Source: an uncultured Jannaschia sp.
GTDB taxonomy: Bacteria > Pseudomonadota > Alphaproteobacteria > Rhodobacterales > Rhodobacteraceae
Length of the DNA: 64,000 nucleotides
NCBI RefSeq assembly: GCF_947494025.1
Contig: NZ_CANLTQ010000002.1
Location: 496,001-560,000, forward strand
Direction of reading: 5' to 3'
Positions 40,760 to 42,424 of this stretch are shown here, in pieces (positions within the stretch are counted from its first letter, which is position 1; every line of letters begins with the position of its first letter). Position numbers and translations under genes: made by a program. The notes beneath the pieces were generated by a model. It saw only the letters and a program-made list of their open reading frames with translations. It ran no database searches and had not been told where the DNA came from.

Positions 40760-40945
40760 ATGGGTATCAACGACCAATCCGACGCCGAGGCGAACCTGCA
40801 GATCGGGCCGACCGATCAGGGCATGGTGCGCATCTTCATCGAAAGCCGGGGCGCCGAGATCCCGATGGATTTCGAACCCGACGAAGCGCTCGAGATCGCG
40901 GAGGAGATCCGCGCCGCGGCGATGATGGTCAAAGGCTCGAAGTAG
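40760..40945 (+). CDS. Small DUF6324-like protein
   Basis: 61 residues, acidic, soluble: MGINDQSDAEANLQIGP, then QGMVRIFIESRGAEIPMDF and an alpha-helical end rich in Glu and Ala. It matches, from memory, the short alphaproteobacterial family DUF6324. Function unknown. Its 3' end overlaps convergent mmcB by 17 bp. Confidence 0.75.
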   Translation: MGINDQSDAEANLQIGPTDQGMVRIFIESRGAEIPMDFEPDEALEIAEEIRAAAMMVKGSK

Positions 40946-41399
40946 ACCCCCACATCGGATCGCGCAGGCCCTGCATCCGGCCGGCGGCACAGCGCGCGAA
41001 CTTGAGCGTGAGCTTCTTGCGGCGCGCGGAGGCGAGCGGCGTGGCCTCCGGCATGCGGACGACCTCCGCCCCGAAGGCGTCGGCAAGGATCAGGCCCGAT
41101 TCCGCGGGCAGGATCTCCGCCGGGAAATCCGCGTCGACGGCCCAGAAGAACCGGTCGCCCCATTCCAGATAGCCCGTCCACTTCAGGTCGGACATGAAGT
41201 CGGCCCGGCTCGACTTGCATTCCACGATCCAGAATTCGCCCTTCGGGCCGAGCGCCATCACGTCGAGGCGGCGGCCCTGCTCGGGCGAGAACTCCTCCAG
41301 GCACATGAAGTCGTGCTCCCGCAGATGACGGCTGACGCCGCGTGCGAGAAGCTGTCCGGGTTGCGGCTCACAGGCGGGGGGCGGGTCCGGGACGAACAT
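40929..41399 (-). CDS. mmcB: MmcB-family DNA repair protein
   Basis: 156 residues. PD-(D/E)XK nuclease-like core: GRRLDVMAL (Asp) followed by EFWIVECKSSRADFMSDLKW (ExK), then YLEWGDRFFWAVDADFPAEIL. The Caulobacter relative is required for tolerance to mitomycin C. Likely acts in DNA damage repair. Monocistronic. Confidence 0.88.
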   Translation of the reverse strand: MFVPDPPPACEPQPGQLLARGVSRHLREHDFMCLEEFSPEQGRRLDVMALGPKGEFWIVECKSSRADFMSDLKWTGYLEWGDRFFWAVDADFPAEILPAESGLILADAFGAEVVRMPEATPLASARRKKLTLKFARCAAGRMQGLRDPMWGSTSSL

Positions 41400-41461
41400 G
41401 GGCGCGGTTGTGAACGAAGCGTGAACCGGTGTCCAGTCGGGGGAGTCCCTCGCCGGACCCC

Positions 41462-41490
41462 TTGCGGCGATGCGACGGGCGACCTAGCTT
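41462..41490 (+). promoter_or_regulatory. Sigma-70 promoter for a small RNA
   Basis: TTGCGG (41462-41467), 17 bp, TAGCTT (41485-41490), the same architecture seen for rpsJ, tuf, rpoZ and tRNA-His. It points into a stretch with no gene; a start near 41497 fits the RNA at 41497-41694. Confidence 0.55.
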
Positions 41491-41496
41491 CCCTTT

Positions 41497-41694
41497 CGGT
41501 GCTTCTGTGCTTCTCGTCACCACGGCATAATTCCGGTGGCCTTAAGCAATTCCGAGGGAGCTGGCTCTGTCGCGGTCCTGGCCGTGTTACCCGGCGCCCA
41601 CCTGTATATACAGGTCCTCGGGAATACATGCCCGACGGCTGCCACGGTTCACCACGGGCCCGATCCCTCCGGGGGTCGGGCCCGCTTCGTCTTC
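41497..41694 (+). ncRNA. Candidate structured small RNA, about 190 nt
   Basis: It lies between mmcB and a convergent hydrolase gene, with a promoter upstream and a strong hairpin at the end. Stems: P1 41533-41540 with 41641-41647 (one bulge); P2 41549-41557 with 41616-41625 (9 bp, one bulge); P3 41571-41575 with 41582-41586; P4 the perfect palindrome ACCTGTATATACAGGT at 41600-41615; and the terminator 41656-41683. The layout is a closed multi-branched RNA. No known Rfam class is recognised with confidence; 6S RNA has a similar length but its defining rod with central bubble is not shown. A GTG-started frame (41536) is open but runs through the hairpin without Shine-Dalgarno, so coding is unlikely. 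Confidence 0.55.
41656..41683 (+). terminator. Strong hairpin ending the small RNA
   Basis: GGGCCCGA (41656-41663) and TCGGGCCC (41676-41683) pair, extended by CCC/GGG to a UCCG tetraloop, about 12 bp in all. GCTTCGTCTTC follows on the plus strand, moderately T-rich. It also lies 9 bp after the stop of the convergent hydrolase gene, where it could serve as terminator for the opposite direction. Confidence 0.6.
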
Positions 41695-42424
41695 AGACCT
41701 CGGCAAGGGATGCGCGCAGCACGTCCGCCAGCGCCCCGGGCGCCTCCATCGGAATCATGTGTCCCGATCCGATCCGGACGATCCGCATCCCGGCGATCCG
41801 TTCGCGCAGCCCGTCCGCGATCCCGGCGACGATGGCCGGCGGGTTGCGGCGGGTGACGAGCGTGACCGGCGGCGGATCGGCGGGCAGGCGCGGCAGGATG
41901 GCGTGGACGTCCTCCACGATGCCGGGCCCGGCCGCGGCGAGCAGGTGGATGCGGTCGCTCAAGTAGTCCCTGCGTCGGGCCGGAACCGTGTTCCAGTCCG
42001 CCCCGTCACCCCACAGCCTGGCAAAACCCCGCGCGGCGCCATCGCGGTCGCCGGCCCGCAGGGTGGCCTCCACGGATTCCATGGCCGCGCGGTTCGCCGC
42101 CCGCACGCGGCGATCGCCGGCGGCGAACATCACCGGCTCGACAAGCGCGAGGCTGCGGATCCGGTCCGGCGCATCCGCCAGCATGCGCAGCGCGACGCAG
42201 CCGCCGAAGCTATGCCCCAGCAGGTCGAACGGGCCGTCCGGCGCCGTCGCCCAGGCGATCGCGGCGGCCTCGTCCATGAAGTCGCCCGACGGATCCCAGG
42301 CCGTGGCGGCGCCGTGACCCGGCAGATCGGGGCAAACGAGCCGCGCGTCGGGCATCGCCTCCTGCAGGCCGCGCCAGGACGCCCCCGACGCGAGGAGGCA
42401 ATGCAGGGCGAGGATCGTCCTCAC
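41693..42424 (-). CDS. Alpha/beta-fold hydrolase
   Basis: 243 residues from GTG 42424, overlapping the upstream gene by 4 bp (GTGA). Nucleophile Ser in LLGHSFGGCVALRML, oxyanion region ALHCLLASGASW, and the catalytic His near the C-terminus in IGSGHMIPMEAPG. Ester/lactone or thioester substrate unknown. Co-transcribed with the DsbA-family gene. Confidence 0.9.
   Translation of the reverse strand: MRTILALHCLLASGASWRGLQEAMPDARLVCPDLPGHGAATAWDPSGDFMDEAAAIAWATAPDGPFDLLGHSFGGCVALRMLADAPDRIRSLALVEPVMFAAGDRRVRAANRAAMESVEATLRAGDRDGAARGFARLWGDGADWNTVPARRRDYLSDRIHLLAAAGPGIVEDVHAILPRLPADPPPVTLVTRRNPPAIVAGIADGLRERIAGMRIVRIGSGHMIPMEAPGALADVLRASLAEV

Follow-up and report, generated by a model that had tools for sequence, protein, structure and literature searches.

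What does the gap between mmcB and an alpha/beta hydrolase gene encode? At positions 41462-41694 of the window (the whole 64,000-nucleotide stretch of DNA analysed here), a preliminary description made from the letters alone had placed a free-standing structured small RNA, equipped with a promoter-like motif and a terminator of its own and similar to 6S RNA in size, and had called it undescribed and not assignable to a known class. Our analysis agrees with the first half of this description, as far as the sequence can tell, and overturns the second: by a full-length match to RF00013, the RNA is 6S RNA. 6S RNA is well known: it is a small RNA that binds bacterial RNA polymerase and holds it back. 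Its gene stands alone and is usually present once or twice per genome.

Identity of the RNA

With default thresholds, an Rfam scan of the window reported no RNA at the 41462-41694 locus and returned one tRNA and one L2 ribosomal leader in the window as a whole, nothing else. The leader belongs to the L2-Alphaproteobacteria ribosomal protein leader family (RF03142; 1829-1896, minus strand, 62.8 bits), a known cis-regulatory element. The Rfam check suggested in the preliminary description did find RF00013 (6S/SsrS RNA), though only under relaxed thresholds: a permissive scan of 41300-41900 (601 bases searched) gave a plus-strand match at 41499-41654 that spans model positions 1-187 of 187 with 42.0 bits and an E-value of 3.9e-7. 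The same scan returned a mir-59 match at E 6, which we took as chance. The 6S match scores 4.4 bits below the RF00013 gathering score of 46.4 bits, which is why the default scan misses it. This gathering score draws a line for annotation and is not itself a property of the biology. The apparently undescribed status of the RNA stems only from a score slightly under the Rfam cut-off, as in many relatives. In a search of the whole genome (215 contigs), no 6S match other than this locus came up at E <= 10; its E-value was 6.7e-7. Compared with plasmids by blastn, the region had a single match, in Pseudorhodobacter turbinis, covering 38% of the query.

41498-41654, plus strand: 6S RNA gene (ssrS), about 157 nt; RF00013 match, covariation, only 6S match in the genome (E <= 10)

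Taken with the conserved fold and promoter pattern described below, the full-length match makes this locus almost certainly a 6S RNA gene, ssrS, in a single detectable copy. With one match in this genome and a promoter pattern and terminator-like hairpin present, the gene appears to stand alone. The size of about 190 nt given earlier applies if the terminator is included, whereas the RNA up to the end of its closing stem measures about 157 nt.

6S RNA in related genomes

RF00013 matched at E <= 1 in 50 of the 60 genomes searched (own included), and 22 of these genomes were over the Rfam cut-off; within the same family, 33 of 36 genomes had a match and 8 of 36 passed. When the loci of eight relatives were scanned at the gathering score, 6S RNA was reported in three. 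We built a covariance model, R1, from 34 family sequences, the window's own among them. Compared with the 36 family genomes, this alignment is without G014, G005 and G033, has two rows from G027, and excludes other families. R1 recovered three of the ten genomes missed by the RF00013 search, including the same-genus genome G014. In a larger sample of 248 family genomes, searched with Infernal's stricter filters for both models, R1 found 6S RNA in 234 (own included), while RF00013 found it in 214 at E <= 0.001 and only 55 passed the cut-off. The difference between 55 and 234 of 248 is an annotation gap: the cut-off fails most copies in this sample, and gathering-score annotation therefore often misses a global regulator here. 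The window's 6S RNA is a lineage-typical sequence, not a different kind.

For covariation analysis we also used a set of 65 sequences, consisting of the 34, G014 and 30 divergent sequences; the latter were the lowest-scoring new family matches of the R1 search and are not a random sample. The window's copy reached 174.1 bits with R1, second best of the 65 loci, its sequence being among R1's own input. This bears on whether the locus could be a pseudogene or decayed copy of 6S RNA, as a score slightly under the family cut-off might suggest. Against decay stand the high R1 score, the presence of promoter pattern, stems and terminator alike, and the fact that this is the only copy found in the genome, and we regard a pseudogene as extremely improbable.

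Several individual genomes deserve mention. Same-genus G005 gave no 6S match with RF00013 or R1; 352 bases separate the start of its mmcB match from the end of a contig, with the apparent start of another gene upstream, and the absence may reflect loss, relocation or an assembly gap. Family genome G033 likewise gave no match with either model, though mmcB is present. G027, at 82% completeness, carries two different 6S matches, pointing to either a genuine second copy or an assembly of mixed origin. A record titled Nocardioides marinus DP1N28-1, an actinobacterium, contains a typical Rhodobacteraceae-type 6S RNA (156.0 bits with R1); given this title, the record is probably mislabelled or contaminated.

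Promoter, terminator and gene neighbourhood

The following elements flank the RNA.

41462-41467, plus strand: -35-like element TTGCGG; TTG...TA pattern in relatives
41485-41490, plus strand: -10-like element TAGCTT, with a 17-base spacer from TTGCGG; pattern kept in relatives
41655-41684, plus strand: intrinsic-terminator-like hairpin 3' of ssrS; 13 pairs, UCCG loop

TTGCGG and TAGCTT are in place as described earlier, and a TTG-(19 to 21 bases)-TA pattern lies within 45 bases 5' of the RNA in 18/18 genus copies examined and in 11/16 other family copies. Calling this promoter a consensus one was an overstatement, however: its hexamers share 6 of 12 positions with the textbook consensus, and a promoter scan requiring 9 of 12 reported none. 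Judging by the spacing and by where the Rfam and R1 matches begin, we predict a transcription start at about 41497-41498. The terminator hairpin with its UCCG loop was found in the place described, with 13 pairs at 41655-41684. Two terminator-like sites occur in the 2.5 kb scanned, against a shuffle mean of 0.7, and a segment made of the RNA's last 3 bases and the next 60 reaches a folding energy of -24 kcal/mol or lower in 13 of 18 genus copies.

On either side lie the genes named before, one of the MmcB family and one for an alpha/beta hydrolase; the minus strand carries both. mmcB (frame 40929-41399) is divergent from ssrS, while the hydrolase gene (frame ending at 41693) is convergent with it; the hairpin at 41655-41684, lying between convergent genes, may serve both. 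The aligned part of mmcB is divergent and at most 220 nt from the RNA in 17/18 genus copies and 6/16 other family copies. On contigs with at least 900 bases upstream (10 of 119 listed loci had less and were dropped), mmcB is divergent and within 400 nt of the promoter pattern in 58 of 109, among the matches listed; in the other 51 of these listed contigs, an mmcB match lies elsewhere in the locus (40) or there is none (11). A hydrolase match lies 3' of the RNA in 12 of 18 genus copies, several of whose loci reach only 1.5 kb downstream. A small DUF6324 protein adjoins mmcB (40760-40945, plus strand); in 17 of 18 genus loci it has a match that precedes the 6S gene at varying distance.

This arrangement also bears on whether the region might code for protein, or act as leader or attenuator for a gene further downstream. 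A leader is at odds with the next gene lying on the opposite strand. The coding version could point to a 106-codon frame open from 41536, whose first ~30 codons are alike in 18 genus copies; these codons are alike because the RNA is conserved. Among the same 18 copies the frame ends anywhere from codon 31 (3/18) to beyond 120, at least 120 codons being the limit of the stretch translated, the frame has no Pfam family, and the sequence changes follow base pairs. We rejected the coding reading on the variable ends and the lack of a Pfam family, and leader and coding stretch together retain a negligible probability.

Covariation and the 6S rod

The RNA at 41497-41694 folds better than 200/200 dinucleotide shuffles with a z of -3.4, a value that includes the strong terminator hairpin; the minus strand of 41462-41694 gives a z of -2.2, with 4 of 200 shuffles folding as well. 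Good folding, together with a default Rfam scan that reports nothing, could be taken as the mark of a new small-RNA class, unrelated to 6S and built on the two long-range stems drawn in the preliminary description. The relatives tell another story. One of these stems, 41533-41540/41641-41647, has a double change in only 1 of 7 pairs, a count at least as high in 491 of 500 shuffles, and we rejected it for its lack of covariation and its conflict with the covarying closing stem of the 6S rod.

The rod itself, which the preliminary description had left unshown, emerged from RNAalifold on the 34 sequences with no structure supplied, as a closing stem, a helix beside the central bulge, an apical stem and a 3'-side hairpin. 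Its parts are as follows.

41499-41518 (41499-41501, 41505-41508, 41514-41518), plus strand: closing stem, 5' arm; double changes in 4/12 pairs (34 sequences) and 7/12 (65 sequences)
41634-41652 (41650-41652, 41644-41647, 41634-41638), plus strand: closing stem, 3' arm, pairing respectively with the 5' arm segments
41530-41539, plus strand: helix beside the central bulge, 5' strand; partner 41616-41625, 98.9% of cells paired, double changes in 3/8 pairs (34 sequences)
41540-41555, plus strand: central bulge, 5' side; unpaired in the consensus
41556-41599, plus strand: apical stem, within 41556-41564/41591-41599 and 41568-41576/41581-41589
41600-41615, plus strand: hairpin on the 3' side of the central bulge, a 16-base palindrome; 100% of cells paired, double changes in 1/5 pairs (34 sequences)

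The palindrome at 41600-41615 is perfect, as the preliminary description had it. In the 34 sequences, 96.8% of the rod's cells are paired, against 88.9% after shuffling, and double changes occur in 13 of 41 pairs, a number reached by 0/500 shuffles. Sliding the partners by one column lowers pairing to 40-53%. The two segments of the apical stem contribute differently: 41556-41564/41591-41599 has 100% of cells paired and double changes in 1 of 8 pairs, and 41568-41576/41581-41589 has 94.9% paired and double changes in 4 of 8. In the 65 sequences, 24 of 41 rod pairs are doubly changed, although fitting that alignment to the rod tilts it in the rod's favour. Covariation among relatives, proposed earlier as a check, thus supports the rod as the structure of this RNA. 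For the window's RNA alone, the free fold comes to -58.0 kcal/mol and the fold with the helix beside the bulge enforced to -57.5 kcal/mol, with an ensemble probability of 0.13 for that helix. On these predicted energies a single sequence does not favour the helix beside the bulge, and the case for the rod is comparative.

A new class is therefore opposed by the full-length 6S match, by the contrast between a long stem without covariation and a rod with much, and by family homologues that exceed the 6S cut-off in 8/36 and 55/248 genomes; we give it hardly any chance.

A possible alternative helix in the central region

The second long-range stem of the preliminary description had a more mixed outcome.

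41549-41557, plus strand: alternative (collapse) helix, 5' strand; partner 41616-41625, 9 pairs with one bulged base

The complementarity is there and is well supported in the 34 sequences, but the evidence from the 65 is mixed. Because this helix shares its 3' strand with the rod helix 41530-41539/41616-41625, the two are mutually exclusive. In the 34 sequences, 90.8% of cells are paired and double changes occur in 5 of 9 pairs, which 2 of 500 shuffles reached; the covariation score is 0.220, against 0.218 for a one-column slide. In the 65 sequences, pairing falls to 74.6%, and 470 of 500 shuffles have as many double-change pairs; the one-column slide pairs 77.7% of cells and has a covariation score of 0.285 against the helix's own 0.197, a result to which the bulged base and stretches of similar letters may contribute in part. 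Counted by cells, double changes in the 65 number 25 against 14.4 in shuffles, and the covariation score is also above that of shuffles.

In favour of the helix, collapse duplexes formed from a sequence's own strands have a mean energy of -12.2 kcal/mol, compared with -10.9 (sd 0.23) when partners are permuted, with 0/5000 permutations as low; this test used 54 distinct strand pairs and did not control for relatedness. In 12 of 65 sequences, on the other hand, the duplex is weaker than -8 kcal/mol. When 13 template bases were blocked in folding, the rod helix was gone and most of the collapse helix appeared in the lowest-energy fold, and with 16 blocked the lowest fold was another one. Without blocking, the ensemble probability of the collapse helix was 0.09; it was 0.32 when 13 template bases were blocked and 0.20 when 16 were. 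On this base-pairing evidence, a collapse helix in the window's 6S RNA is plausible and unproven. One could go further and read the Rhodobacteraceae 6S RNA as a two-state switch, in which 41616-41625 is complementary to both 41530-41539 and 41549-41557. The second of these pairings would have been lost in some lineages, perhaps with another way of releasing the polymerase. This reading we put forward tentatively, as possible but rather doubtful.

Proposed mechanism

6S RNA is described as a mimic of an open promoter that binds the housekeeping RNA polymerase and is released when the polymerase copies a product RNA from it (PMC4227106). By analogy with the family, the ssrS promoter, divergent from mmcB, would drive transcription of a ~157-nt RNA. 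The rod's central bulge would imitate an open promoter and bind RNA polymerase carrying the housekeeping sigma factor, and the bound polymerase would be restrained in slow growth or stress. The product RNA presumably starts near 41542-41543, a position we propose from the alignment to the 6S model and from E. coli biology, and we propose that 41530-41539 makes up most of its template. When nucleotides return, the polymerase would use the 5' side to make a short product RNA, and the helix next to it would open. Its 3' strand, 41616-41625, now free, could then pair with 41549-41557, as the base pairing suggests, so that the bulge collapses and release is helped.

Comparison with known 6S RNAs

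The RNA resembles RF00013 6S RNA in its full-length match, closing stem, central bulge, hairpin opposite the bulge, apical stem and promoter pattern of its own; it differs in being shorter than the 187-position model and in scoring below the gathering score. A 'central bulge collapse' helix is described for Bacillus subtilis 6S-1 RNA and proposed for Aquifex aeolicus 6S RNA (PMC12005410, PMC4227106), and in E. coli 6S RNA a hairpin reportedly takes its place (PMC12005410). Compared with the B. subtilis and A. aeolicus helices as presented there, the helix considered here is deduced solely from covariation and from folding under constraints, the rod already contains the 3'-side hairpin, and the helix is weak in 12/65 relatives. 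The likeness is that the two sides of the central region would pair in an alternative way once product RNA covers the template strand.

6S RNA was studied in Rhodobacter sphaeroides by Elkina et al. 2017 (as cited in PMC8998176 and PMC8414754), and growth without it is described as slower at 250 mM NaCl (PMC8998176, citing Elkina 2017). A Northern blot detected 6S RNA in Ruegeria pomeroyi, a member of the window's own family, where its level is given as higher under carbon than under nitrogen limitation (PMC4809877). Its listed length of 158 nt in that source compares with ~157 nt for the window's RNA, and R1 gave full-length matches of 157-160 nt in 4/4 tested contigs titled Ruegeria.
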